56,268 nucleotides of DNA from Pelotomaculum sp. (lineage in GTDB: Bacteria; Bacillota; Desulfotomaculia; Desulfotomaculales; Pelotomaculaceae). Of the stretch, positions 40,526 to 54,392 are shown one piece after another. Each line of letters begins with the position of its first letter. Position 1 is the stretch's first letter. Where the stretch lies: contig JAHDOA010000059.1 of assembly GCA_018435055.1 (NCBI GenBank), forward strand, positions 1 to 56,268. Reading direction: 5' to 3'. Both the position numbers and the translations under genes were made by a program. Under the pieces are notes generated by a model that saw only the letters and a list, made by a program, of their open reading frames with translations, searched no databases and had not been told where the DNA came from.

Positions 40526-42142
40526 ATGGCCAACAAAAAAGATTTTAAGTTGGAAATAGCCAGCATTGAAGACGCGACAAATTATGTGCGTGATTTATTA
40601 AAAAAATACAAATGCGCCGATCGTGACAGGGCGCAAGCAGAACTCTTTACGGAAGAGGCGGTTGTCTACTGGGCAAAAGCCGCCGCTGCCGGCGATACTT
40701 TTCAAATCGCGCTGCGCAAGCGTTTTAAGACCATAACTATATCCCTGTCTTACCGGGGAGCGCCGGCCGACCCGCTGTCCCCGCCTGAGGAAGATGAGGA
40801 TGATGAATTCAGCTTCATCGGCCAGAATATTTTAATCGGGCTGTCGACGGTCAGCTACAGCTATGAAAACGGCTATAATACGGTTAACTTTACGTTGAAA
40901 GAAAAAGGGATGAATCCTCTTGCCGCCATTGTTCTAGCTCTGGGGGCGGCCGTAATCTGCGGACTGTCCGTGAACTACTTCGCCCCCGCCCTGCAGAAAG
41001 TCCTGTCGGCCTCAATATTGACCCCCTTGAGCGACGCTTTTTTCGGATTGCTGAGCGGGATCGTCATTCCCTTTCTCTTTATGTCGGTAATTGCCAGTAT
41101 ATTTAACATGGAAAATATCGCCCAGATGAAACGCGTTTTCCGCATACTCTTTAGCTGGTTTGCAGGAATGACGGCTGTGTCGGGGGTAATTACCGCGCTG
41201 GCGGGTATGATTTGTTTTCCCCTGCAAGACGGCAGCGCCGCCGCAGGCGCCAGTGAGGGGATGTGGACACAGATTGCCGCAATGTTGTTTGATATTGTAC
41301 CTTCAAATATGTTTAAGTCCTTCTTAGACAGCAATACTTTGCAAACAATCTTCCTCGCCGCCATTATGGGTATTGCCATGCTTGCCATGAAAGAGCGTTT
41401 TCCCATTTTAACCAAAGTTATAACTGAGCTAAACCTGATTTTTTCTACTTTGTTGGACGCCGTTTGTTCCCTGATGCCCTGGGTGATCTTTATTTGTATT
41501 TTCAACATGCTGCTGACGGGGGACGGCGTGGCGCTCCTCAGTTCTTTTGGTGTTGTAGCGCTCATATGCGCGTGTTTTGCAGTATTGGCTTTCCTCGGCC
41601 TGGCCAGCGTGGCTGTCATCGAAAAGAAAAACCCGGTAAGCTACATCAAAACAATCGGCGCTATCTTGCTGATTGCCATATCTACCGCCAGCTCCAGCGC
41701 CACCTTTGCGCCTCACACCATGATTGCCACCACAAAACAGGGTATTCGCGATTATTTGGTTAAATTCACCATACCTGCAGCCGCGCTTTTTTTAAAACCC
41801 TTTATGGTGCCCGTCTTGTTTTTGACGACTTTATTTGTAGGTAGTCTATACGGGATCAACTTTGGTACGGCGGATATTGTGTCCATGATCCTGCTTTGCA
41901 TAATTATCGCTGTTGCGGCGCCACCCTCGCTGGGTATGGGGGCCTTTCTCTTCACGGTTGTATTCAAGAAATTCGGCATCCCGCTCGAAGGCCTGGCGCT
42001 AGCGGCGAGTCTTTATATATTTTTTGACTACCCGATGACTACCGGCGATATGTTTTTCATGAATATCAGCATGCTGCATACGGAGCACTGGCTGCGGCTG
42101 AAAGATAGAAAGGAAACCGCCGGGGTTCCCACCTCGCTTTGA
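40526..42142 (+). CDS. Dicarboxylate/cation symporter (DAACS) with an N-terminal degenerate GHKL domain, copy 1
   Basis: Residues about 130-530 are a sodium:dicarboxylate symporter with eight or more helices and the serine-rich re-entrant loop STASSSATFAPHTM. Residues 1-130 are an added domain resembling an RsbW-type GHKL (HATPase_c_2) kinase: LFTEEAVVYWAKAAAAG is in the place of the N-box and the strand ISLSYRGAPADPL is in the place of the G1 box, followed by IGQNILIGLSTVSYSYENG. The N-box Asn and the G1 Asp are absent, so ATP hydrolysis is unlikely. I chose ATG 40526 because copy 2 begins the same way; 40511 is the longer option. A role for the domain as a binding module for a STAS protein is inference. 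Confidence 0.75.
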   Translation: MANKKDFKLEIASIEDATNYVRDLLKKYKCADRDRAQAELFTEEAVVYWAKAAAAGDTFQIALRKRFKTITISLSYRGAPADPLSPPEEDEDDEFSFIGQNILIGLSTVSYSYENGYNTVNFTLKEKGMNPLAAIVLALGAAVICGLSVNYFAPALQKVLSASILTPLSDAFFGLLSGIVIPFLFMSVIASIFNMENIAQMKRVFRILFSWFAGMTAVSGVITALAGMICFPLQDGSAAAGASEGMWTQIAAMLFDIVPSNMFKSFLDSNTLQTIFLAAIMGIAMLAMKERFPILTKVITELNLIFSTLLDAVCSLMPWVIFICIFNMLLTGDGVALLSSFGVVALICACFAVLAFLGLASVAVIEKKNPVSYIKTIGAILLIAISTASSSATFAPHTMIATTKQGIRDYLVKFTIPAAALFLKPFMVPVLFLTTLFVGSLYGINFGTADIVSMILLCIIIAVAAPPSLGMGAFLFTVVFKKFGIPLEGLALAASLYIFFDYPMTTGDMFFMNISMLHTEHWLRLKDRKETAGVPTSL

Positions 42143-42202
42143 TGATTAAAATGTCGCAAAACCCGCTATAAATTTGGCGGTATGTAAGGACGGTATCAAA
42201 AA

Positions 42203-43816
42203 ATGGCCAACAAAAAAGATTTTAAGCTGGAAATAGCCAGCATTGAAGACGCGACAAATTTTGTGCGTGATTTATTAAAAAAATACAAATGCGCCAGCCG
42301 TGACAAGACGCAAGCAGAACTCTTTACTGAAGAGGCGGTTGTCTACTGGGCAAAAGCCGCCGCTGCGGGCGATACTTTCCAAATTGAGCTGCGCAAGCGG
42401 TTTAAAACTATAACCTTATCCTTGTCTTACCGGGGAGCGCCGGCCAATCCCCTGTCCCCGCCTGATGAAGATGAGGATGATGAATTCAGCTTCATCGGCC
42501 AGAATATTTTAATCGGGCTGACGACGGTCACCTATAGCTATGAAAACGGCTTTAATGTGGTTACCTTTACTTTGAAGGAAAAAGGGCTGAACCCTGTCGT
42601 AGCCATTGTCCTGGCCCTCGGCGCCGCCGTAATCTGCGGGCTGGCCGTGAACAGCTTTGCTCCTTTTATGCAGAATGTCCTATCTGCCTCAATATTGACT
42701 CCTTTGAGCAACGCTTTTTTCGGATTGCTGAATGCGATCGTCATTCCCTTTCTCTTTGTGTCTGTAATTGCCAGTATATTTAACATGGAAAATATCGCCC
42801 AGATGAAACGCATTTTTCGCATACTCTTTAGCTGGTTTGTGGGAATAACGGTTGTGTCGGGAGTAATTGCCATGCTGGCCGGGATTATTTTTTTCCCCCA
42901 GCAGGGTGGCGCCGCTGCCAGCGCCAGTGAGGGAATCTGGGCGCAGATTGCCGCAATGGTGTTTGATATTGTGCCTTCAAATATATTTAAATCTTTTTTA
43001 GATAGCAATACCTTGCAAACGATCTTCCTCGCCGCCGTTATGGGTATTGCCATGCTTGCCATGAAAGAGCGTTTTCCCATTTTAACCAAAGTTATAACTG
43101 AGCTAAACCTGATTTTTTCTACCTTGTTGGACGCCATTTGTTCCCTGATGCCCTGGGTGATCTTTATTTGTATTTTCAACATGCTGCTGTCAGGGGACGG
43201 CGGGGCGCTCCTTAGTTCCCTTGGCGTAGTCCTGCTGATCTGTGTCTGTTTTGCAGTCATTACAGTGCTATGCCTGACAAGCATTGTTTTCATTGAAAAG
43301 AAAAACCCGGTAAGCTACATCAAAACTATCGGCTCTATCCTGCTCATTGCCGTATCTACCGCCAGTTCAAGCGCTACCTTTGCGCCTCATACTATGATTG
43401 CCACCACCAAACAGGGCATTCGTGACTATCTGGTTAAATTCTCTATACCTGTGGGCGCCCTGTTTTCCAAACCTTATGTGGTGCCGGTCTTATTTTTGAT
43501 GACTTTATTTGTGGGCGGCTTTTACGGGATCAGTTTTGGCACGGCGGACATAGCGGCAATGGTCCTGCTTTGCATAATTATGTCCGTGGCCGTGCCGCCC
43601 ACGCAGGGTATGGGTCCCTTTCTTTTTACGGTTGTATTTAAGAGGTTCGGTATCCCGCTCGAAGGCCTGGCGATGGCGGCAAGTCTTTTTATTCTATTCG
43701 ATTACCTAATTACCACCGGCAATGTGTTTTCCATTAATATCAGCATGCTGCATACAGAGCACCGGCTGCGGAAGACAAGTCAGGAGGAAACGGCGAAATT
43801 TTCTGCCTCAAGTTAA
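42203..43816 (+). CDS. Dicarboxylate/cation symporter (DAACS) with an N-terminal degenerate GHKL domain, copy 2
   Basis: This is a tandem duplicate of the gene 60 bases upstream, 537 residues, nearly identical over long stretches and starting MANKKDFKLEIASIEDATNF. Differences concentrate in the last third of the membrane part (for example VGGFYGISFGTADIAAM), so the two may differ in substrate. The serine-rich loop STASSSATFAPHTM is kept. The N-terminal domain has the same losses at the N-box (TEEAVVYW) and the G1 box (YRGAPANPL). The acidic linker PDEDEDDEF separates it from the rest of its fold. A ribosome site TAAGGA precedes the ATG. Confidence 0.75.
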   Translation: MANKKDFKLEIASIEDATNFVRDLLKKYKCASRDKTQAELFTEEAVVYWAKAAAAGDTFQIELRKRFKTITLSLSYRGAPANPLSPPDEDEDDEFSFIGQNILIGLTTVTYSYENGFNVVTFTLKEKGLNPVVAIVLALGAAVICGLAVNSFAPFMQNVLSASILTPLSNAFFGLLNAIVIPFLFVSVIASIFNMENIAQMKRIFRILFSWFVGITVVSGVIAMLAGIIFFPQQGGAAASASEGIWAQIAAMVFDIVPSNIFKSFLDSNTLQTIFLAAVMGIAMLAMKERFPILTKVITELNLIFSTLLDAICSLMPWVIFICIFNMLLSGDGGALLSSLGVVLLICVCFAVITVLCLTSIVFIEKKNPVSYIKTIGSILLIAVSTASSSATFAPHTMIATTKQGIRDYLVKFSIPVGALFSKPYVVPVLFLMTLFVGGFYGISFGTADIAAMVLLCIIMSVAVPPTQGMGPFLFTVVFKRFGIPLEGLAMAASLFILFDYLITTGNVFSINISMLHTEHRLRKTSQEETAKFSASS

Positions 43817-43877
43817 GGTGACGCAGCGTTGAGGGCGCCAGGGGTGTCATAGGGACGTATCAGTTAATGGGTTTATA

Positions 43878-44185
43878 TTGCAGGACAATGTTTTAGAAGG
43901 GACTTCTTCAAGGGCGATGGTAGTACATAAGGGAAAACTTTATGTATCTACTGTTAACGAAATAAATCTGTTAACGAAATAAATCCAAGTCCAACTCCAA
44001 TGCTGTATAACAGCTTAGACCCTGAGTTCTATCCCTGGGAGCCGGTTTTCAATGCGCCAGGCCTGCCTGATAAAAACCCACAGGGTGCTATAAGTAATAT
44101 GGCGGTATTTAATAATCGGATTTATGTTGGTGTAAGTAATCCGGATGGGGCACAAAACCATTATAAAAATGTAAGGGATGATTGA
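43878..44185 (+). pseudogene. Remnant of a beta-propeller-like surface protein, frameshifted by a 17-bp duplication
   Basis: One frame reads SRAMVVHKGKLYVSTVNEIN and another PQGAISNMAVFNNRIYVGVSNPDGAQ; both look like blades of a kelch/propeller protein. Deleting one of two copies of a 17-base unit (43951-43967, 43968-43984) joins them into a single reading of about 95 codons. There is no ribosome site or signal peptide at the left edge, and the right edge stops abruptly at the next gene. It is a fragment of a larger lost gene. Confidence 0.6.
43951..43984 (+). repeat. 17-bp tandem duplication
   Basis: CTGTTAACGAAATAAAT occurs twice without a gap. It breaks the frame of the propeller remnant. 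Confidence 0.9.
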
Positions 44186-44190
44186 AAAAA

Positions 44191-45018
44191 ATGAGTAAAC
44201 GATTTACGTGCTTGAGGTGGAAAGTATATTCAGTAATGCTTGTGGCGTTGCTCTGTGCGGCGCTTGCCGGCTGTTCAGCCACGCCGGTCACCCAAACTGC
44301 TCCCGGCGCCAGTGCGGAAGATGTCCTATATCAGGTGTCAACACTCGGCGCCCTGATGCAGGGAGTATATGACGGGGAAATGGAAGTTGGACAGCTGGTG
44401 CAGGAAGGCGACCTGGGCATCGGTACTTTTGAGGCCCTTGACGGGGAAATGGTGGTTTTAGACGGCAGGGTCTACCAGGTGCGGGGAGACGGTCAAGTGC
44501 ATGAAGCGGCTGATACGGTGAAAACTCCCTTTGCCGTGGTGACCAGGTTCGATCCGGATCAACAGGTGCAACTATCCGGTATTGAGAGCTATGCCCGGTT
44601 AAAGGATGAGCTGGATAAACTATGCCCCAGCCCCAATCTGTTTTACGCTTTCAAAGTGGAAGGGACCTTTGGGTATGTGCAAACGCGCAGTGTTCCCCCG
44701 CAAGAGAAACCTTATCCGCCTCTGGTAGAGGTAACGGATATGCAGCCGACCTTTGAGTTTCACGACGTAAAGGGTACGCTGGCCGGTTTTTGGTGCCCAT
44801 CTTATGCCGAGGGTGCAAATATGCCCGGCTATCATCTTCATTTTCTGACGGAAGACCGCGCGGGCGGGGGGCATTTACTGGAGTGCACACTGGCCGAAGG
44901 CAGTGCCGCGGTAGATATCACTACCGAATTTCACATGCTCCTGCCGGAAAATGATCATTTCACCCAGGCGGACCTGGGAAGTGTTAAAAAGGTGGATATT
45001 GAGCGGGCCGAGCAGTAA
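44191..45018 (+). CDS. alsD: Exported alpha-acetolactate decarboxylase (lipoprotein form)
   Basis: The enzyme converts 2-acetolactate to acetoin. The last 240 residues match the ALDC family: the zinc ligands are seen as GYHLHFLTEDRAGGGHLLEC (His-x-His-x10-His, near residue 210), with the conserved Arg in QTRSVPPQ and the Glu-rich end. Unlike textbook enzymes it carries an N-terminal signal with a lipobox (VALLCAALAGCSA), so it should be anchored outside the cell. No acetolactate synthase gene is nearby. I use ATG 44191; TTG 44182 would add three residues. An extracellular ALDC is unexpected and could act on another substrate. Confidence 0.8.
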   Translation: MSKRFTCLRWKVYSVMLVALLCAALAGCSATPVTQTAPGASAEDVLYQVSTLGALMQGVYDGEMEVGQLVQEGDLGIGTFEALDGEMVVLDGRVYQVRGDGQVHEAADTVKTPFAVVTRFDPDQQVQLSGIESYARLKDELDKLCPSPNLFYAFKVEGTFGYVQTRSVPPQEKPYPPLVEVTDMQPTFEFHDVKGTLAGFWCPSYAEGANMPGYHLHFLTEDRAGGGHLLECTLAEGSAAVDITTEFHMLLPENDHFTQADLGSVKKVDIERAEQ

Positions 45019-45221
45019 ATAACATTATAACGGGGGCGGAAGTATACTACTTGCATTCAACCCAGTCAATAAACATCGTGCCTGCGGAACGGTGTTTATT
45101 TGCCGCGCGGAAGAACGACAGCAGGATAACAGCAGTTAAAGTGAACCCGCCAAACCATGAAATATCCATTGCAATTCTGCGGGTTTTTAAATAATGCGGG
45201 GAAACAAGGTTTCGACTTTGC
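45019..45221. other. Convergent intergenic region
   Basis: The short gap between the ALDC gene and the minus-strand ABC system holds no clear terminator. A minus-strand frame reading DISWFGGFTLTAVILLSFFRAANKH lies at about 45080-45170. It is hydrophobic and could be a small membrane protein, but I see no ribosome site good enough to call it. Confidence 0.3.
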
Positions 45222-47471
45222 TCACCCGCGCTGTACCTGCTTTCTTCTTGCTTTCGGGTCGGTGACCCATTCCACATACCCCAGGAAAAGGGAAAGTAGC
45301 CATGATATGAAAAAGTACAGCACCGCCACCATAATCAGGGGAAAGAAGGCATCAAAGGTGCGGCTGCGGATAATATCGCTGGCTTTGGTCAAATCCTGCA
45401 CGGCGATGTAGCCAACTACGGAAGTCATCTTCACCAGGGAAATGAATTCTCCTTTATAGACGGGTATAATTTGCCTTACCGCTTGGGGCAGGACGATGTA
45501 GAGGAAAGTTTTTGCTTTGGTAAATCCAGTGGCAATGCCGGCTTCGATTTGTCCTTTGTCCACACTTTCGATACCTGTTCGAAACATCTCGGAGACATAG
45601 GCTGCAAAATTCATGCCGAAGGCGATCACTGCAACTAGGACGGGATCAATATTTACGGAAGCAAAAACGATATAGAATATAATCATTAAGAGGATCAGCA
45701 CGGGAGTGCCGCGCAGAATAGAGATATAGATTTTGGCTGGCTGTTGGAGAGCCTTGTTTTGCGACATGCGCATAAAGCAGATCAGAGCGCCCAGCAGTGT
45801 GCCGAGGAAGGTTGCCAGGAGCGAAATGATTACCGTTACTTTTAGCCCGCTGACGATCAGCAAATAACGGTTTTCCAGGATTATGTTGTTGTAGAAACTA
45901 TCGCCGGCCTTTGATAGAAAGGATGCTTTTTTCCCGGCGGCAGCGTCGCCGTCGTTGGCCGCAATATTTGACTTGAGGGCGATGACAGCTGTTTTAAAAT
46001 CCATGTACGGGTCGGAAAAATCAATTTGCTGCTGTCTCTCTTTTGTAATGGCAATACCGTCGGTAATTATGTCAACTTTTCCGGAAGCGAGGGCAATCAC
46101 CAGGGCGGAAAATTCCATAGTCTTGATTTCGAGCCTTAACCCCTCGTGTTGTGCAAACCGTTGCAGCATTTCAATATCAAAACCAACATATTTACCGTTC
46201 ATATATGCCACATGAGGTAAATCCGCCACTGCAACCCCCAGAACAACTTCTTCCCCGGTCTCAGGGTATTTAAATTCAGGCATTTCTGCCTTTTCGGGAT
46301 CATCTTCAAACCAGCGCTGATACATCTCATCGTAAGCGCCGTCAGCTCTAATAGTTTTTAAATAGTTGTTAAACTTCTCCCGAAGTAATGGGTTGTTTTT
46401 GTTGAACCCCACGCCCAGGGGATTTGTTAAGGCGTCATCCGTAAGGATTCCCAGTTCCGGATTGTTCTTAAGCAATACTTTCGCTGATGTTAAATCATAA
46501 AAAGCCACGTCAGCTTTTTTATTTTTCAGGGCTAAAACCATGTCGGTAGGGCTGTCAAAGCGTTTAATCTCCGCACTGGGGTAGTGGCTGGCGACAAAAG
46601 CGTCGTGAATGGTTCCTGTATATACCGCCACTCTCTTGCCGTCTATATCATCCAGCGATACCATTTTGCCGCCATTTGCTACTGTGTCCGGGGCCTTTTT
46701 GACCAGCATCACCTGGGCGCTGGCAAAAACAGGCTGGCTAAAATTGATTGATTTTTTGCGTTCTTCGGTATTGGTCAATGTGAACGCCAAATCTATTTTG
46801 CCTGATTGCAGGGCCGGGATCAATGCGGCAAACTTCATGTCGGAAAACTCCACCGGTTTGCCCAGCCCGATCGCAATCCTGCGGGCGAGTTCACTATCAA
46901 AGCCTGTGATTCTCCTGTTTTCATCAGTAAAGCAAAAAGGTTCCCGGGTAGCGTTCACGCCAATTTTTAGAGTTGTTCCATCTGTAGGCGCAGTAAGCTC
47001 AACTTGTTCATAAGGGGATAAGTCCTCCTTAATCCAACGTTCACACATGTCTTCCAATGTCCCGTCGCTTATTAGTCCGGCAATAATTTCGTCTACTGCC
47101 GCAAGCAGTTCATCATTGCCTTTCCTTACTCCGATGGCTATGTCCTCTTTTCCCAACGGTTCAGGCAGATACCACATGTCCGGATTATGCTTCGTCACAT
47201 TTATTGCTTCTGTATAGTCCATAACCACAGCCTCAATCTGTCCTGCTTTCAATGCGGCTACGGCGTCCATGACATCATCAAAAATTTTGACGTCTGCGCC
47301 GGGGAACCTGGCCCTGGTCATTTGCTCTCCGGTTGAGCCGGTCATGACACCGATTTTGGCCTCACTGGCGTCATCCAGTTTCGTGATTATTTTTTCTGAT
47401 TTGCCGCATCCCGCCGGAATAACAGCTATCATTAAACAGATAAAAAACAGAACAGCAGCCTTCCTCATCAA
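45222..47471 (-). CDS. Amino-acid-type ABC transporter: two solute-binding domains fused to the permease
   Basis: The 749-residue protein starts with a lipoprotein signal (FFICLMIAVIPAGC). It continues with solute-binding sequence in an unusual order: a lobe II-like part (about 35-150, AKIGVMTGSTGEQM), a lobe I-like part (about 165-265, TLKIGVNATREPFCF), a second lobe II (about 270-395, KRVAVYTGTIHDAF) and a second lobe I (about 410-510, VVLGVAVADLPHVAY). The last 220 residues are a HisM/GlnP-type permease with its coupling loop (EAGIATGFTKAKTFLYIVLPQAVRQ). Lobe order II-I-II-I suggests two circularly permuted binding domains. It lies downstream of two ATPase genes on the same strand and probably works with them. 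Confidence 0.75.
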   Translation of the reverse strand: MMRKAAVLFFICLMIAVIPAGCGKSEKIITKLDDASEAKIGVMTGSTGEQMTRARFPGADVKIFDDVMDAVAALKAGQIEAVVMDYTEAINVTKHNPDMWYLPEPLGKEDIAIGVRKGNDELLAAVDEIIAGLISDGTLEDMCERWIKEDLSPYEQVELTAPTDGTTLKIGVNATREPFCFTDENRRITGFDSELARRIAIGLGKPVEFSDMKFAALIPALQSGKIDLAFTLTNTEERKKSINFSQPVFASAQVMLVKKAPDTVANGGKMVSLDDIDGKRVAVYTGTIHDAFVASHYPSAEIKRFDSPTDMVLALKNKKADVAFYDLTSAKVLLKNNPELGILTDDALTNPLGVGFNKNNPLLREKFNNYLKTIRADGAYDEMYQRWFEDDPEKAEMPEFKYPETGEEVVLGVAVADLPHVAYMNGKYVGFDIEMLQRFAQHEGLRLEIKTMEFSALVIALASGKVDIITDGIAITKERQQQIDFSDPYMDFKTAVIALKSNIAANDGDAAAGKKASFLSKAGDSFYNNIILENRYLLIVSGLKVTVIISLLATFLGTLLGALICFMRMSQNKALQQPAKIYISILRGTPVLILLMIIFYIVFASVNIDPVLVAVIAFGMNFAAYVSEMFRTGIESVDKGQIEAGIATGFTKAKTFLYIVLPQAVRQIIPVYKGEFISLVKMTSVVGYIAVQDLTKASDIIRSRTFDAFFPLIMVAVLYFFISWLLSLFLGYVEWVTDPKARRKQVQRG

Positions 47472-47539
47472 TCATACCTCCTGTCACTATTGCGCCATAT
47501 ACCACGTATACCAATTGGGTCGGGATTTCTGGCAAGTTT

Positions 47540-48628
47540 TCAATGAGACGCCCCTTTAACGTTTATGGATAGTATGTTTTTGTCGTTTTCGTACTTGTAC
47601 TGGATGCCGGCGCTGCGGCTTTGAATAAGCTTGAGCCCGATGTCATCGTCGTGTACACTTGCTTCAAGCGGATTAACCGGCGCCCCGGCAGCTACGCACA
47701 AAAACTCCACCTGTCCGGTTTTTTCGGAATAAGCCAGACGGAGTTCAATATCGGAAAAATCTGTTTGTAGCAGCAGTACCTCCTCCACCAGCAGCAGTAC
47801 ATTGTCACAAACTCGCCGTGGCAAAAAATGTTTATTGCAAAAAGTTTCAATTTCTGCGTTCATGGCATAGAGGTCATAATTGGGGCTGTCGATATGATAA
47901 TGATAACTGCGCACCCTGTTTATAAAAGAGCTGGTTTTTTCTTTTTGCGGGTTATCAAAGATCTGCTCAGGTGGGCCATCTTCGTAAATTACGCCTTCGT
48001 CCATATAAAACACCCGGGTGGATATGTTGCGGGCAAATTCCATTTCATGGGTAACAACCAGCATGGTCATACCGTCTTTGGCCAGACGGCGGATCACCGC
48101 CAATACTTCGCTTACCGTGGTGGGGTCAAGGGCTGAAGTTGGTTCGTCGAACAGTATAACCTCCGGCTCCATAGCCAGGCAGCGGGCTATGGCTACTCTT
48201 TGTTTTTGCCCGCCGGAAAGCTCATCTGGGAAATTATTCGCTTTTTCCGCCAGCCCCACCAGCTTTAATAGTTCAAATGCTTTGCTGCCGGCTTCTGATT
48301 TGCTTTTGCCAAGCAGTTTTACCGGCCCAATGGTGAGGTTTTCCAGCACCGAAAGATGTGCGTACAGATTAAAAGATTGAAAGACCATACCCATCTTTTG
48401 GCGTATTTTTGGCACATTGGTAGTTTTCGCCAAAAGATCAATATTGTTAATATAAATGCTGCCGCCGCTGGGCTTTTCCAGCAGGTTAAGGCAGCGTAAT
48501 AAAGTGCTTTTTCCAGTACCGGAAGGACCTATGATGGTTATTATCTCGCCCTTGTGAATTTCAGCGTTTATATCCTTCAGCACGGTGAGATCGCCATAAC
48601 TCTTGCTCAAGTGTTTTATCTTAATCAT
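47540..48628 (-). CDS. Amino-acid ABC transporter ATPase with a C-terminal degenerate GHKL domain (copy A)
   Basis: Residues 1-240 are a complete GlnQ-type ATPase: Walker [10 protein letters not shown] near residue 34, signature LSGGQKQR near residue 136, Walker [13 protein letters not shown] near residue 157 and the switch His VVTHEME. Residues about 250-362 are an extra domain resembling an RsbW-type GHKL kinase ([16 protein letters not shown], then [11 protein letters not shown] and [20 protein letters not shown]). The N-box Asn is replaced (EEVLLL) and no DxGxG is present. I start it at ATG 48628, 8 bases after AAGGTG, rather than at 48670. It lies beside the permease fusion gene. Confidence 0.8.
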
Positions 48629-48767
48629 GCGCCAACACCTTCTTTTACGCGTTTTATTTTCGTAGTTCAACCGTACATTCAGTTCAGTTGACTTTCATCT
48701 GATGCTTACTGAGGGGATGAATTCAGTAAGGATGAACTAATCATTGGAAGGTTTTTCTTTAGATTGC

Positions 48768-49871
48768 TTAAGATTTGCCATCAGCGCTTTTCATGACCAG
48801 TTTAAGGACATTGACGTTATCATCACGGGTGTACGAGATTTCATTGGTGAACCCTTTGATCAGGCGGCGGCTGATTTCATCAAAGGATTCATTTTCAATA
48901 ATGTTACCGTCGGGGGCGGTATAACGGAGATATATTTCCTTTTCACCTGTGTTTTCATTATATCTGACGGTTATAGCAATCCGATCAGTTTGCCTGGCGC
49001 CGGCGGTAATATAAACTATCAGTTCTTCGATGACCAGGTTGATATTGTCTTTCTCCTGTTTGGTAAGGTCATATTTTTGACAATAATCAGTTAACATTCT
49101 AACAAACTCGTAAATATCGATATCGATTATTTGCGACGCATATTCTAGAACCTTCAGCTTGTTTATAAATGCTCTGGTTTTTTCCCGCTGGGGGTTGTTG
49201 AAAATTGCCTCCGGCGTGCCCTTTTCATAGATGCCCTTCTCGTCCATATAAAAAATCATGCTGGCGATATTTTTGGCAAAATTCATCTCATGGGTGACAA
49301 TGACACAGGTCATGCCGCTTTTGGTCAGCTTGCGGATTACGGACAGCACTTCGTCAACCATAGTCGGGTCCAGGGCGCTGGTCGGTTCGTCAAAAAGTAT
49401 TATTTCCGGACGCATGGCCAGACAGCGCGCTATGGCGGCTCTCTGTTTCTGTCCGCCGGAAAGTTGATCGGGCATGTAGTCGGCGCGGTTGGCGATGCCG
49501 ACCATTTTCAGATATTTAAACGCTTCGGCGATGGCTTGTTTTTTGGGTATTTTAAAGATATTTACCGGCGCCAGGATCACGTTTTCCAGGATGGTTTTAT
49601 GGGAAAAAAGGTTAAAGCTTTGATATACCATACCCATTTTTTGCCGTACCCGGTCAATGCCGGCGTCCTTTTTGGTGATATCTACCCCGTCAATGATAAT
49701 CTCACCCGAGTCAGGCTGTTCCAACAAGTTCAGACAGCGGATCAATGTGCTTTTACCGCAGCCCGAGGGGCCGATAATAACTATAACATCGCCCCGGTTA
49801 ATTTCTGCGCTGACGTTTTCAAAAACCAGGTTATCACCATAGCTTTTCTTTAAATTCTTGATCGAGATCAC
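48768..49871 (-). CDS. Amino-acid ABC transporter ATPase with a C-terminal degenerate GHKL domain (copy B)
   Basis: The ATPase half (residues 1-240) has Walker A GPSGCGKST, signature LSGGQKQR, Walker [16 protein letters not shown] and the switch His VTHEMNF. The last 125 residues again resemble an RsbW-type domain: EKDNINLVIEELIVYITAG stands at the N-box with Tyr or Val where Asn is expected, and the final strands read EISYTRDDNVNVLKLVMKS. It is a paralogue of copy A. The gene follows the permease at 49875 by 3 bases, so the pair forms one transporter with the binding protein at 50606. Confidence 0.8.
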   Translation of the reverse strand: MISIKNLKKSYGDNLVFENVSAEINRGDVIVIIGPSGCGKSTLIRCLNLLEQPDSGEIIIDGVDITKKDAGIDRVRQKMGMVYQSFNLFSHKTILENVILAPVNIFKIPKKQAIAEAFKYLKMVGIANRADYMPDQLSGGQKQRAAIARCLAMRPEIILFDEPTSALDPTMVDEVLSVIRKLTKSGMTCVIVTHEMNFAKNIASMIFYMDEKGIYEKGTPEAIFNNPQREKTRAFINKLKVLEYASQIIDIDIYEFVRMLTDYCQKYDLTKQEKDNINLVIEELIVYITAGARQTDRIAITVRYNENTGEKEIYLRYTAPDGNIIENESFDEISRRLIKGFTNEISYTRDDNVNVLKLVMKSADGKS

Positions 49872-49874
49872 TGG

Positions 49875-50585
49875 CTACACCTCTTCAACCTTATAATCAA
49901 CCTCTGCCTGCAAGTGTTTGTCGCGTTCAAAAAACCAGAAAAGTAAATTGGCAAATACACCGATCAGCAGGTAGGCTACCGCGCTGATTATTAAAGACAT
50001 ATACGGATCCATAGATCTGCTCGTAATCACCTGACTGGCTCTGGTCAGGTCATTAATGGCCAGAAAGCCCACTAAAGAGGTCTCCTGCAGGGTAATAATC
50101 AACTGGTTTTTATATGTAGGCATTGCGTGTTTTACGGCCTGAGGCAGAGTGATCAGGTGGAACACCATGAATCTGTTCATGCCCAACGTGCGGCCTGCTT
50201 CAATTTCGCCGGGGTTTACGGCTTTAACTGCTGTATACATGATTACAGCTATATAGGAACCGGTCTTCATCGAAAAGGCGGTAATCGCCAGGATGACAGT
50301 ATCTATGTCGGTATTTGAAAAAAGCATGTAAACAAAGATCAACAGCAAAACCAGGGTTGGCAGCCTGATAAACAAATTAGCTAACAAATCTACTATTCTT
50401 GCGGCGATCCGGGATTTGCCCAGCTTGATTTTGCAAAATACAGCCCCCAGTACCGTGCCGATTAAGAATGTGGCAAAGGTCATATACAGGGTCAGGCCAA
50501 AACCTTTCAGGAGGAATAGATATCGATCTTCATATATCAGGTTAATGTAAAAAGAGTTTTGCACAGCCTGCAAAAATGCGTCCAC
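49875..50585 (-). CDS. Amino-acid ABC transporter permease (HisM/GlnP type)
   Basis: This 236-residue membrane protein is a free-standing version of the permease part of the 45222-47471 fusion. It has an N-terminal segment FYINLIYEDRYLFLLKGFGLTLYMTF, five helices and the coupling loop EAGRTLGMNRFMVFHLITLPQAVK near residue 142. It lies between the binding-protein gene (20 bases upstream) and the ATPase copy B gene (3 bases downstream) on the same strand. All of this suggests one operon. Confidence 0.87.
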   Translation of the reverse strand: MDAFLQAVQNSFYINLIYEDRYLFLLKGFGLTLYMTFATFLIGTVLGAVFCKIKLGKSRIAARIVDLLANLFIRLPTLVLLLIFVYMLFSNTDIDTVILAITAFSMKTGSYIAVIMYTAVKAVNPGEIEAGRTLGMNRFMVFHLITLPQAVKHAMPTYKNQLIITLQETSLVGFLAINDLTRASQVITSRSMDPYMSLIISAVAYLLIGVFANLLFWFFERDKHLQAEVDYKVEEV

Positions 50586-50605
50586 TGTTTACAATCCCCC
50601 GTTCT

Positions 50606-51445
50606 TTAATTTTCCTTTTGATAGTCGGTGGTATTTACAATAAATACAATATCTTTCACCCAAACGCAGTCGCTCATCGTGACGTTACCGCCTTTTTCCA
50701 GATCAGTTTTTATTTCTAATGAATCTGGGGAGGCAAGGAGGTCAACCTTGCCGAAGCACAAATCTAATAATGCCTGCTCATAGCTACCAATCGGATAAAA
50801 TTCGATCCTGGCGCCGATACTGTTGGCAAAGTGAGTTGTTAATTCAACATCCGCTCCTTCCCATCGATTGGTTTCTGTATTCAAGAATGAGACCGGTTCC
50901 CAGTCTTCATATATTAAAACCCTCAGTACCTTGTCGCCGGCCCCGGTATTTTCCACCGGTCTGCTTGTAAACTGATGTTTAGAGCATTCTGCGGTGCGTT
51001 CTAAAATATCTTTATATACATCAGTCTGTCTAAACCCGGCGATAAAAGCATTGAACTGTTTATTTAGTTCGGTATTTTTGGGATTTAACACATAAGCGTA
51101 CTCGTCGTTCTCCACAAAAGTACCATGAACTTTATATTCGGGTTGGAGCCGGCAGAACACATCGGCCTCGTCTCTTTCCAGGGCTGCGGCGTCAAGCTGG
51201 TGGAAGGCCAGGGCCAGCGCCATATCGCTGTTTGAATCGTACCTGCGCAGCTTGATCCCCTTACTATGATTGGTCAAAATATAGTCGGGACTGTTGCCCA
51301 GGATTACACCAATGGTTTTTCCGCTTAGATTATTGATGTCGAGTATTTCGTTTTGTTTTGGCGCGCAACCGCTTAAGGCTAGAAGGATACACAACAAAAG
51401 GCCAGTGCAAAATATTGCTCCATTTTTTAAACTCAGATTACTCAT
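50606..51445 (-). CDS. Solute-binding lipoprotein with apparently permuted lobes
   Basis: A lipoprotein signal (LLLCILLALSGC) is followed by 245 residues of amino-acid-binding-protein sequence in reversed order. First come LSGKTIGVILGNSPDYIL and the DSNSDMALALAFHQLDAAA helix, which belong to lobe II and the C-terminal helix of the usual fold. Only after a linker near residue 165 comes VLRVLIYEDWEPVSFLN with EGADVELTTHFANSIGA, normally the N-terminal lobe I. The protein then ends. Thus a full two-lobe receptor is present, but circularly permuted. It heads the operon with permease and ATPase copy B. Its ATG overlaps the stop of a truncated molybdoenzyme fragment upstream. Confidence 0.75.
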   Translation of the reverse strand: MSNLSLKNGAIFCTGLLLCILLALSGCAPKQNEILDINNLSGKTIGVILGNSPDYILTNHSKGIKLRRYDSNSDMALALAFHQLDAAALERDEADVFCRLQPEYKVHGTFVENDEYAYVLNPKNTELNKQFNAFIAGFRQTDVYKDILERTAECSKHQFTSRPVENTGAGDKVLRVLIYEDWEPVSFLNTETNRWEGADVELTTHFANSIGARIEFYPIGSYEQALLDLCFGKVDLLASPDSLEIKTDLEKGGNVTMSDCVWVKDIVFIVNTTDYQKEN

Positions 51446-51720
51446 GTAAGAATCACCAAATCTTCTTTTTCCAATATGCCCAGGCGGTTGCCGCCGGTTA
51501 TGTCCTCATGGGTGAGGACGGCTATCACACCGGCCATTTCTTTTGCCCGGGAAATGTCGATGCGCCGGATCAAGGCATGGGCGTGCGCCGGGCGCTTCAC
51601 GCCGCACCAGAGCAGGTTTTCAGGATAATAGTCGGCGGCGTACATCTCTTTTCCCGTCACCTTTGCCGGAGCGTCTGCCCGCGGCGTTGCCCTGCCTACT
51701 TTCAAAGGCTCTTGAGACAC
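51442..51720 (-). pseudogene. N-terminal fragment of a xanthine dehydrogenase/aldehyde oxidase-type molybdoenzyme
   Basis: The 92-codon frame reads VGRATPRADAPAKVTGKEMY and continues through HALIRRIDISRAKEMAGVIAVLTHEDITG, the start of molybdenum hydroxylase large subunits (normally 750 residues or more). After about residue 82 the match ends and the frame stops, overlapping the ATG of the binding-protein gene by ATGA. A good ribosome site (AAGGTGA) precedes the GTG start. The remaining 670 residues are missing, so this is a truncated gene. It may still be translated and so couple translation of the lipoprotein gene. Confidence 0.75.
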
Positions 51721-51840
51721 TCTAATCACCTTTTTTAAAAAAATAACCGTGGCATAATTTACTATTACATAGAGATGTCGAAAGATCCTTTTTTTTAAGA
51801 AAAAAACAAGGACGTAAGGGCGGTTTTGGCAGATTAACAA

Positions 51841-52155
51841 TCAAAATTATAGCCGGTTTTGGCAGGAAAATTTTACCCCCGGAAAAACAAAATTTAAGTG
51901 ATGTTTTGGGGATTCTGTTATAATTAAGAAGGTACAAAAAAACAGAGGTTTCGATATCGTCCCGAAAATTCTATGCTGAGGCTCCGAAAGAGATTATTTT
52001 GTGGTTAAGTCCCGAAAGAGAAAGTAAAAAGAAAAGGGTTTTTTGTGCTATGCGCAGAAAAAAATAATGGCAACTATTATAGAAAGAAAGGGTATATACC
52101 CCATTTGCTGGGGCTACTTAAAGAGCAAGAATTTACCGGGAGAAGGTGAAGAAAG
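51841..52155. other. Divergent intergenic region with repeated CCGAAA and a hairpin
   Basis: A run of about 75 bases (51960-52035) holds GTCCCGAAA, GCTCCGAAAGAG and GTCCCGAAAGAG, three similar boxes about 30 bases apart. ATACCCCATTTGCTGGGGCTA near 52096-52117 can form a short hairpin. TATAAT at about 51919 may be the -10 of the phosphatase gene. I do not recognise a known riboswitch. Confidence 0.35.
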
Positions 52156-53931
52156 ATAAACAGCATTATTGCTCTGTTCATAGATCTAATTAAGAATATG
52201 TCGGTAATTATGGTACTGGCTTATGTCTTAACCAGGACCAGGGCTTACACGGACATCATGGCCAGGAAGGAAATTACGCCTAACCAGCAAATCGGCATGG
52301 CTTTGATATTTGGGGTATTTTCCATTTACGGCACCTTGAGCGGTATTGATGTCATGGGCGCCATTGCCAACATCCGCGATCTGGGACCGGCCATTGCCGG
52401 ACTGGTCGGCGGACCCTGGGTAGGTATTGGGGCCGGGTTAATAGGCGGGCTGCACCGTTATACCCTGGGGGGGGTTACCTATATACCCTGCTCAGTTTCT
52501 ACCGTACTGGCCGGTCTGGCGGGCGGTCTAATCTATCATTGGCGGAAAGGTGAGTTCGTCGGCATTACTGGAGCGGTTGTGTTTATGGCGCTAATGGAAG
52601 CCTTTCATATGGGTTTGAACCTGGTTATTGTTAAACCCTTCAGCGTGATCCTGCCGATTATTAAGGAAATATATCTGCCCATGATTTTGACCAATACAGC
52701 GGGGATGGGCATATTCGCTTTTATTATCCATAACTTGATCAGGGAGCGGGAAACACAGCGCACCAAGGAATTAATCGAAGGCGAATTAAGAGTCGCCCGC
52801 GAAATACAGATGAGCATTGTACCCAAGATCTTTCCTCCTTTTCCGGAACGACCGGAATTAGATGTGTTTGCCGTCCTGGAACCGGCCAAAGAGGTGGGGG
52901 GGGACCTCTATGATTTTTTCCTATTGGATGATGATCACCTCTGTTTCACGGTAGGAGACGTATCCGGCAAAGGGGTGCCGGCTTCCCTTTACATGGCTGT
53001 TACCAAAACTCTGATTAAAGCCAAAGCGGACATCAAACTGGGCCCGGATGAAATATTATACCGGGTAAACAACGAGCTCTGCGAGGACAATGACTCGGGT
53101 ATGTTTGTCACCGAATTTCTCGGCATATTAACTATTTCTACTGGAGAGCTGGTTTTCAGTAATGGCGGCCATAACATCCCCTACCTGCGCAGGCAAAACG
53201 GGGAAGTGGCGCCCCTGCCGAAGGTACCAGGGGTGGCCCTGGGGGTCATGGAGGATTTTGAATATTTTTGCGCCAGCGTACAGCTGGAAGCCGGGGATAG
53301 TTTGGTGCTGTATACGGACGGGGTCACAGAGGCCATGAATCCGGCTGGGGAACTTTTGCGTGAAGAACGCCTGGAAAATATTTTGCGGGAATTAAACGGT
53401 AAGACCGCCCAGGAAGAGGTCGGACATATACTGCACAGCACGCGGCAATTCATGAACGGCGCCAACCAGGCTGACGATATCACCATCCTGGTAATAAAAT
53501 ACCTCGGACAAAAGCTGCTGGCCTACCGCTTAAAAAATAGGCTGGCGGAGATTGAAGCCCTGGCTCTGGCTGTGGAAAGTTTTGCCGCAGCGAATAATTT
53601 GCCGGAGCAGATGGTTTTTCAAGTTAACCTGTGTTTGGATGAGCTGCTGACCAATACTATCAGTTATGGTTTTCCGCAGGGCGGCGAACACGAGATCACA
53701 GTTGAAATTGTCCTGCAGGGTGGGGCGCTGGTGATCACCACCCATGACGGCGGATTGGCCTTTAATCCCCTGGAACGGGCGGAAGCGGATACAAGTCAAG
53801 GTATTGAGGAACGGCCGGTTGGGGGCCTGGGCATCCATCTGGTGCGTAACATGATGGACGAAATTGAATACCGGCGGGAATCGGGGCAAAACGTGCTGGT
53901 AATGAAAAAGCTTATTAAAAAGAATAATTAA
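52156..53931 (+). CDS. LytS-like membrane sensor fused to a SpoIIE-type phosphatase and a GHKL (RsbW-like) domain
   Basis: This is a protein of about 591 residues. The N-terminal 180 residues are 5TM-LYT-like helices (GIDVMGAIANIRDLGPAIAGLVGGPWVGIGAG carries the N-R-x-x-G-P motif of LytS sensors). A PP2C/SpoIIE phosphatase follows (about 225-420), with metal-binding Asp in EVGGDLYDFF, GDVSGKG and LYTDGVTEA. The last 140 residues are an RsbW-type GHKL domain with the N-box CLDELLTNTISYG intact and THDGG at the G1 box. The frame has no ATG before 52198, but the membrane segment begins earlier. AGAAGGTGA at 52141-52149 points to a non-canonical start, ATA 52156 or ATT 52165. The STAS gene follows by 128 bases. 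Confidence 0.8.
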   Translation: MNSIIALFIDLIKNMSVIMVLAYVLTRTRAYTDIMARKEITPNQQIGMALIFGVFSIYGTLSGIDVMGAIANIRDLGPAIAGLVGGPWVGIGAGLIGGLHRYTLGGVTYIPCSVSTVLAGLAGGLIYHWRKGEFVGITGAVVFMALMEAFHMGLNLVIVKPFSVILPIIKEIYLPMILTNTAGMGIFAFIIHNLIRERETQRTKELIEGELRVAREIQMSIVPKIFPPFPERPELDVFAVLEPAKEVGGDLYDFFLLDDDHLCFTVGDVSGKGVPASLYMAVTKTLIKAKADIKLGPDEILYRVNNELCEDNDSGMFVTEFLGILTISTGELVFSNGGHNIPYLRRQNGEVAPLPKVPGVALGVMEDFEYFCASVQLEAGDSLVLYTDGVTEAMNPAGELLREERLENILRELNGKTAQEEVGHILHSTRQFMNGANQADDITILVIKYLGQKLLAYRLKNRLAEIEALALAVESFAAANNLPEQMVFQVNLCLDELLTNTISYGFPQGGEHEITVEIVLQGGALVITTHDGGLAFNPLERAEADTSQGIEERPVGGLGIHLVRNMMDEIEYRRESGQNVLVMKKLIKKNN

Positions 53932-54059
53932 GTAACCTACTTCGGTAAACTAATAAAGAACTTAATTAGCAAGCTAACCAGTCTAAATAAGCAAACCTTG
54001 TTAAGTACACCAATAAGTAAGTTAATTAATTAATAAGGTATAAAGAGGGGGTTTTTTAC
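53932..54059. other. AT-rich spacer with irregular TAAGTA/TTAATTA repeats
   Basis: The 128 bases between the phosphatase and STAS genes contain recurring AATAAG, TAAGTA, CTTAATTA and AGTTAATTAATTAATAAG units. They have no coding frame and no clear terminator, so the two genes are probably cotranscribed. Confidence 0.4.
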
Positions 54060-54392
54060 GTGAAGATCAAAGAGGATAAAAAAGGGCAGGCAATAGTACT
54101 GGCAATTGAGGGGAGGCTGGATTCAATTACCTCGGGGACATTAGAAAAAAAATTTTTGACGATAATCGACGCCGGGGAAAAAAATATCGTGTTTGATTTT
54201 ACCAGCATGGATTATATTAGCAGCGCCGGTCTCAGGGTTTTGCTGATGGCCGCCAAAAAGACCGCCAAACTGGGGGGCAAGGTGGTCCTGGCGGCGTTGT
54301 GCGACAATGTCAAGGAAGTCTTTGACATAGCCGGCTTTACCAGCATTTTCACCATTACCGGTTCGTCCGAAGAAGCTATCAGGACTCTCTAA
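54060..54392 (+). CDS. STAS-domain anti-sigma-factor antagonist
   Basis: The 110-residue protein is a SpoIIAA/RsbV-type STAS domain. The phosphorylation loop reads MDYISSAGLRVLL near residues 52-64, with the Ser of SSAGL being the usual target of GHKL kinases and of SpoIIE-type phosphatases. It lies directly after such a phosphatase with its own GHKL domain, so the two are probable partners. The start is GTG after AGAGGGGG. No sigma factor is encoded in the window. The nearest other GHKL-like domains are those fused to transporters at 40.5-49.9 kb. Confidence 0.92.
   Translation: MKIKEDKKGQAIVLAIEGRLDSITSGTLEKKFLTIIDAGEKNIVFDFTSMDYISSAGLRVLLMAAKKTAKLGGKVVLAALCDNVKEVFDIAGFTSIFTITGSSEEAIRTL

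Follow-up and report, generated by a model that had tools for sequence, protein, structure and literature searches.

Partner switching is known mainly for freeing sigma factors, together with some other outputs. In the SpoIIAB–SpoIIAA and RsbW–RsbV systems (sigma F, sigma B), which work with SpoIIE or RsbU, the set of parts comprises a PP2C phosphatase, a STAS protein with a phosphorylatable Ser and an intact RsbW-type kinase. For a STAS protein that acts on a transporter, the nearest functional precedent is MlaB, which binds the ATP-binding cassette (ABC) ATPase MlaF: its phospho-site lies within the MlaF interface, and a phosphomimetic residue weakens the binding (PMC7367683). According to the authors of the MlaFB study, who left the control of MlaB open, no second STAS–ABC pair is present in the PDB (PMC7367683). 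Here we describe a locus of Pelotomaculum sp. (GCA_018435055.1, contig JAHDOA010000059.1, positions 1–56,268 of the forward strand; this whole stretch of 56,268 nucleotides is called the window) in which two symporter-like proteins and two ABC ATPases carry an added RsbW-like domain, close to a SpoIIE-type phosphatase and a STAS protein.

RsbW-like domains on transport proteins

Each of the two symporter-like proteins (plus strand, from 40526 and 42203) has an extra N-terminal stretch of about 127 residues, and each of the two ABC ATPases (minus strand, 47540 and 48768) an extra C-terminal stretch of about 120 residues. Profile comparison and structural models support the assignment of these added domains to the RsbW/SpoIIAB-type fold and their homology to the GHKL domain of the phosphatase. 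A preliminary description of this DNA had proposed this likeness and suggested structure prediction and profile comparison as a check; both bear it out. By hhalign, the ABC-fused domains match the phosphatase and SpoIIAB GHKL domains (97.6%, E 3e-12), and the symporter-fused domains match the ABC-fused ones (96.3%, E 2e-9). The direct comparison of symporter-fused domains with the phosphatase and SpoIIAB GHKL domains detected nothing (0.3%), because the six symporter sequences are too similar to each other for a good profile; the symporter domains are thus tied to RsbW via the ABC domains and via their predicted fold. A search of the organism's own genome with the ABC-domain profile retrieved the phosphatase of the window (E 7.5e-8) as well as symporter 1 (E 1e-6) and symporter 2 (E 1e-5), each by its RsbW-type domain.

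AlphaFold2 models of the ABC ATPase 1 C-terminal domain (pLDDT 91, pTM 0.84) and, with weaker confidence, of the symporter 1 N-terminal domain (pLDDT 70) have SpoIIAB, RsbW and UsfX as best solved matches. The VIA Z-scores are 12–15 (13–15 for the best matches, up to 14.4 for the ABC domain) with Foldseek E-values of about 1e-4, compared with Z-scores of 9 or lower for histidine-kinase domains. Among the best structural matches are structures solved with SpoIIAA, RsbV or RsfB bound. Sequence searches of the PDB with both added-domain profiles gave chance matches only. The gathering score of Pfam HATPase_c_2 is missed by the symporters (12.7 and 12.0 bits compared with 27.4 needed; E 0.13 for symporter 1), and the ABC ATPases are not matched at all, so that the added domains are left unannotated in databases which use the Pfam cut-off.

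The RsbW-like domains cover residues 1–127 of symporter 1 (40526..40906) and of symporter 2 (42203..42583; 90% identity to the first) and, stop codons included, the C termini of ABC ATPase 1 (47540..47911) and ABC ATPase 2 (48768..49139). The latter is a member of the ABC-domain alignment and was found at E 1e-44 in the profile search. All of these domains are expected on the cytoplasmic side.

The added domains have lost residues of the nucleotide site. This was counted in an alignment of 170 domains taken from the loci collected in this analysis. The N-box Asn and the G1 Asp are never both kept in ABC-fused (0/108), symporter-fused (0/14) and NCS2-fused (0/4) domains, that is in 0/126 combined, where the ABC columns include some alignment error. 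Both are kept in 7 of the 11 MATE-fused domains, and in all of the phosphatase-fused (13/13) and stand-alone RsbW domains (20/20, partly by construction as this set was picked with a canonical profile; 33/33 together). The N-box Glu is retained in most domains of the alignment. One further subclass of fused ABC ATPases retains the N-box Asn and has lost the G1 Asp alone. As the preliminary description had noted, both residues are gone from all four transporter domains of the window and present in the phosphatase; by these two residues, none of the four qualifies as an active GHKL serine kinase.

The transporter cores differ in their state of preservation. The ATPase domains at 47912..48670 and 49140..49871 are of the amino-acid type (Pfam ABC_tran; NCBIfam, GlnQ-like for the first), and their Walker A, LSGGQ, Walker B and H-loop motifs are intact. 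The predicted partner of ABC ATPase 1 is a single chain of three SBP_bac_3 domains and a BPD_transp_1 permease domain (45222..47471, minus strand; Pfam). For ABC ATPase 2, a permease (49875..50585) and a solute-binding lipoprotein (50606..51445) on the same strand are the likely partners by sequence, and relatives of both adjoin other fused ATPases. In the symporters, Pfam confirms the SDF domain at 40922..42142 (7e-50) and 42599..43816 (2e-54; stop codons included in both). Nevertheless, NMDGT, a motif of the cation site, is gone from every fused symporter core examined and the arginine of transmembrane helix 8 from most of them. An alignment with a solved aspartate transporter and with the fused sequences reveals that both window cores lack both features, NMDGT being replaced by SKPYV in symporter 2, and so do not show the signature of a Na+-coupled acidic amino acid transporter of the DAACS family. 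As NMDGT is lost, these proteins may not be ordinary symporters and their transport function is uncertain; it is possible that they are receptors, or transporters with a different coupling. The earlier suggestion that the STAS protein, docked on the transporters, gates uptake is therefore safer for the ABC importers, with their intact ATPase motifs, than for the symporters.

The phosphatase, the STAS protein and a proposed circuit

All six genes named in the preliminary description (two symporters, two ABC ATPases, phosphatase, STAS protein) were recovered in place, and Pfam assigns each of them. The start of the phosphatase gene had to be revised, since position 52156 is an ATA codon, which is no standard start, and the first ATG is at 52198. 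The frame begins after a TGA at 52147, with the ATA at 52156 ahead of that ATG, and the alignment of relatives extends upstream of the ATG. The phosphatase consists of a 5TM-5TMR_LYT membrane sensor (52243..52734; Pfam 9e-48), a SpoIIE-type PP2C domain (52927..53502; 2e-50) and an RsbW-type HATPase_c_2 domain (53536..53910; 1e-24), all on the plus strand. The last of these keeps the N-box Asn, the G1 Asp and the GGLG motif; with all kinase motifs present in its sequence, it can be the kinase of the STAS protein.

The STAS gene follows at 54060..54392 on the plus strand (Pfam STAS 9e-19; NCBIfam ant_ant_sig). Alignment with SpoIIAA identifies Ser-55 (ISSAG) as the phosphorylatable residue, and this Ser is retained in 40 of 40 STAS domains from fusion or partner-switch neighbourhoods. 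The genome encodes two STAS proteins. As the other is the SpoIIAA of sporulation, whose gene adjoins that for SpoIIAB, the window protein is the only non-sporulation STAS protein of this organism. To judge from their sequences, a SpoIIE-type PP2C with membrane sensor, a STAS protein with its Ser and an intact GHKL kinase are thus all found in the window.

Large proteins with an N-terminal STAS domain were observed at three other loci (L070 3078–5441, L108 12993–15251 and L226 6155–8530), two of them near ABC fusions and one near a phosphatase–STAS pair; the first also matches TCAD9 and kinase-like families. A 527-residue protein (L085 8038–9618) combines a STAS and an RsbW domain, with a middle part that reads as kinase-like.

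The sensor of the phosphatase has a motif R-x26-R-x10-C-x2-S, which is present in 15 of 15 relatives. In the window these residues are R74, R101, C112 and S115 (translated from 52156), and their spacing equals that of R72, R99, C110 and S113, the four residues which bind pyruvate in BtsS; two of these, the arginines, are common to LytS proteins generally (PMC10653868). On this pattern the sensor ligand is probably pyruvate, an extracellular small carboxylate.

Taken together, we consider it rather probable that the added domains are pseudokinase copies of RsbW/SpoIIAB which serve as docks for the STAS protein, so that partner switching controls transport post-translationally. In such a circuit the LytS-type sensor would detect the extracellular small carboxylate, probably pyruvate, and would thereby set the balance between the SpoIIE phosphatase domain and the intact GHKL kinase domain of the same protein. 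This balance would determine the phosphorylation of Ser-55. In its unphosphorylated form the STAS protein would bind the dead RsbW domains, on ABC ATPases and symporter-like proteins alike, and alter the activity of these transport proteins; the phosphorylated form would not dock. The proposal is built on computed homology and predicted fold, on the loss of nucleotide-site residues, on the intact state of the kinase and phosphatase domains, on the conservation of the Ser and of the pyruvate-site residues, and on genetic association. The sequence of sensor, PP2C and kinase, STAS protein, dead RsbW dock and transporter is consistent with every part, and we infer its last two steps.

Spread and genomic context of the fusions

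One scan of GTDB genomes with a single protein as query yielded at least 80 loci, most of them with an ABC fusion which was confirmed by profile. ABC fusions are thus spread over many phyla; the loci listed come from Bacteroidota, Chlorobi, Verrucomicrobia, Spirochaetes, Synergistota, Coriobacteria, Chloroflexi and Clostridia. The organism of the window has eight fused transporters, six ABC and two symporter fusions. An RsbW-like domain is also carried by NCS2 permeases and MATE pumps, so the theme is not limited to amino-acid transporters. In a domain tree, the domains of ABC fusions (108/108), of MATE fusions (11/11) and of symporter fusions (14/14) form one cluster per class, and most NCS2-fused domains stand apart, with the reservation that the domain is short and the tree was rooted at its midpoint. 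This separation by transporter class suggests that the domain was recruited separately to the different families. We regard the odds as slightly in favour of a widespread class of post-translational control, in which partner switches with pseudokinase RsbW docks have transporters from four unrelated families (ABC importers, DAACS-like proteins, NCS2 permeases and MATE pumps, probably assembled separately) as effectors in many phyla. At one locus (L101 6811–7170, minus strand, genome G095) an RsbW domain of the ABC type forms one reading frame with a fragment of a solute-binding protein, apparently as the result of a deletion.

Several fusions lie in same-strand operons with partner-switch genes. 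The gene orders are STAS, SDF fusion and PP2C with gaps of 44 and 11 bp (L246); PP2C, ABC fusion and RsbW with gaps of 28 and 5 bp (L118); ABC fusion, STAS, RsbW and NCS2 fusion (L113); solute-binding protein, permease, ABC fusion, PP2C, RsbW and STAS (L168 and L153); and ABC fusion and STAS (L123). In related genomes, phosphatase, RsbW and STAS genes are neighbours of a MATE fusion in G021 and G099 and of an NCS2 permease in G095 and G033. Among 109 ABC-fusion genes, 24 (22%) have a PP2C, STAS or stand-alone RsbW gene at a distance of 9 kb or less; among 32 plain amino-acid ABC ATPases, 1 does (Fisher p 0.008, and 0.013 when the window is left out). The sole control locus with such neighbours (L246) is itself the operon of STAS protein, symporter fusion and phosphatase. 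At 1.5 kb (7/109 compared with 1/32, p 0.42) and at 3 kb (p 0.06) the difference is not significant, significance being reached only from 5 kb upward. The neighbourhood survey proposed in the preliminary description thus revealed several lineages in which the fusions are associated with SpoIIE and STAS genes, with a physical linkage which is partial.

Co-occurrence within genomes points in the same direction. In the family of the window, the phosphatase–STAS pair is present in 8 of the 9 genomes that carry a fusion and in 1 of the 16 that do not (p 7e-5, uncorrected for ancestry), and in four further genomes (G088, G096, G095, G086) the pair and a fusion are on one contig. The preliminary description held that wide occurrence of the fusions with no SpoIIE or STAS genes nearby would speak against it. 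The fusions are indeed wide, but a SpoIIE phosphatase is encoded in 29 of the 30 tested fusion-bearing genomes from outside Bacillota, the base rate being 5/14 in a set of unmatched named control genomes.

Three other reading frames of the window may be mentioned. The region 37500–40487 encodes N- and C-terminal GH3 domains, a copper amine oxidase N-terminal-type domain and an HK/GC/chemotaxis sensor domain in one protein. The product of 44182–45018 is an acetolactate decarboxylase, probably exported to judge from an apparent lipoprotein signal (LCAALAGCS). A short open reading frame (51442–51840, minus strand) in the interval from the ABC operon to the phosphatase gene resembles, on reading, the beginning of a molybdenum subunit of xanthine dehydrogenase and is perhaps a gene remnant.

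Alternative readings and known systems

A number of observations weigh against STAS docking on the transporters. The control set of the linkage analysis is small (32 loci), and in 85 of the 109 ABC-fusion loci, many on short contigs, the surrounding 9 kb contain no partner-switch gene, which would often place the partner elsewhere in the genome. Shared ancestry confounds the co-occurrence, and the SpoIIE base rate comes from unmatched genomes. One fusion genome of the window's family (G090, 84% complete) has no phosphatase–STAS pair, while four genomes (G019, G024, G026, G075) have the pair with no fused transporter detected, so that the pair has other or unseen outputs. The symporter cores are atypical. 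Pyruvate as the ligand, binding by the STAS protein, the direction in which it acts and its consequence for transport are all steps that we infer. Of the circuit put forward in the preliminary description, the RsbW-like fold, the loss of residues, the link to SpoIIE and STAS genes seen in several lineages and the window protein as the only non-sporulation STAS protein of the genome have stood up, and binding and gating keep their conditional form.

The shortage of nearby partner genes would also fit a self-contained regulator, in which the dead GHKL domain senses a metabolite or nucleotide, or merely dimerizes, with no STAS partner, as the C-terminal domains of MetN and ModC do. Such regulatory domains are common on ABC importers, and the strong divergence of the added domain among fusion classes (about 25% identity) is in line with this idea. 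Yet the same domain is found on four transporter families, to which it was probably recruited separately, it shares operons with SpoIIE, STAS and RsbW genes, and it co-occurs with SpoIIE phosphatases and with the phosphatase–STAS pair; we consider this explanation unlikely. Nor is it likely to be a decaying passenger without function, an idea which the loss of nucleotide-site residues might suggest and which we find hardly credible: the open frame is kept across phyla, the N-box acidic pair and a C-terminal motif are conserved, and independent fusions show a repeated pattern.

Information might also flow in the reverse direction, with the flux or substrate state of the transporter deciding whether its membrane-tethered dead RsbW domain binds the STAS protein or lets it go. 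Transport activity would in this way feed into the partner switch and into gene expression, and the symporter-like proteins would be receptors and not transporters. Signalling transport proteins are known in general. The loss of NMDGT in the fused symporter cores, and in most of them of the arginine of helix 8, fits this flow, as do the eight fused transporters which face one STAS protein in one genome. DauA, for its part, is described as acting through DctA (PMC5703999). On the other hand, the ABC ATPases are part of complete importers and their catalytic motifs are intact, the domain also occurs on MATE pumps and NCS2 permeases, and the phosphatase comes with its own sensor, which makes reverse flow decidedly improbable. 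It is very unlikely that the domains are membrane-tethered anti-sigma factors which sequester a SigB/F/G sigma factor until a transport signal sets it free. RsbW and SpoIIAB, which have the same fold, do bind sigma factors (solved complexes 1l0o and 8jzt), but no SigB/F/G factor above the family cut-off was detected in any of the 30 fusion-bearing non-Bacillota genomes. SpoIIAB holds sigma F only with ATP, and the ATP-site residues are gone from the fused domains.

Against this background we return to docking of the STAS protein as the preferred reading. The parts belong to known kinds, and the fusion would be a variant of partner switching, with a wider claim if binding is shown. The added domain shares its fold, and the locus its set of parts, with the SpoIIAB–SpoIIAA and RsbW–RsbV systems, but the fused domain has lost the residues of the nucleotide site and is attached to transporters rather than binding a sigma factor. 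In the open-access literature, which leaves most subscription journals outside the search, no description of RsbW domains fused to transporters was found. Should the dead RsbW domains prove to be docks for STAS proteins, the logic of the partner switch would control nutrient uptake directly and fast, in lineages without SigB/F/G, and a likely function would be at hand for an unannotated domain on many transporters.

Rv1364c (3ke6), a solved structural match of the added domains, combines PP2C and RsbW/GHKL domains in one chain like the phosphatase of the window, which differs by its LytS-type membrane sensor and by transporters as candidate outputs. This sensor belongs to the same domain family as that of BtsS, a LytS-type pyruvate receptor with seven transmembrane helices (PMC10653868), and has the four pyruvate residues equally spaced, whereas its output is a SpoIIE phosphatase with a GHKL domain and not a histidine kinase. 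A C-terminal domain as a regulatory handle on the ATPase is known from MalK, which is controlled by a docking protein (EIIAGlc), and from MetN and ModC, although the domains are unrelated and the partners different. These three importers are named as regulated in the MlaFB study (PMC7367683). With MlaF–MlaB itself the locus would share a STAS protein which acts on an ABC ATPase subunit. MlaB, however, binds the ATPase domain directly, aided by a C-terminal extension, and has neither an RsbW domain nor a known kinase or phosphatase (PMC7367683). The circuit proposed here, if true, would bear on the question which the MlaFB authors left, namely what controls a STAS protein that itself acts on an ABC transporter.

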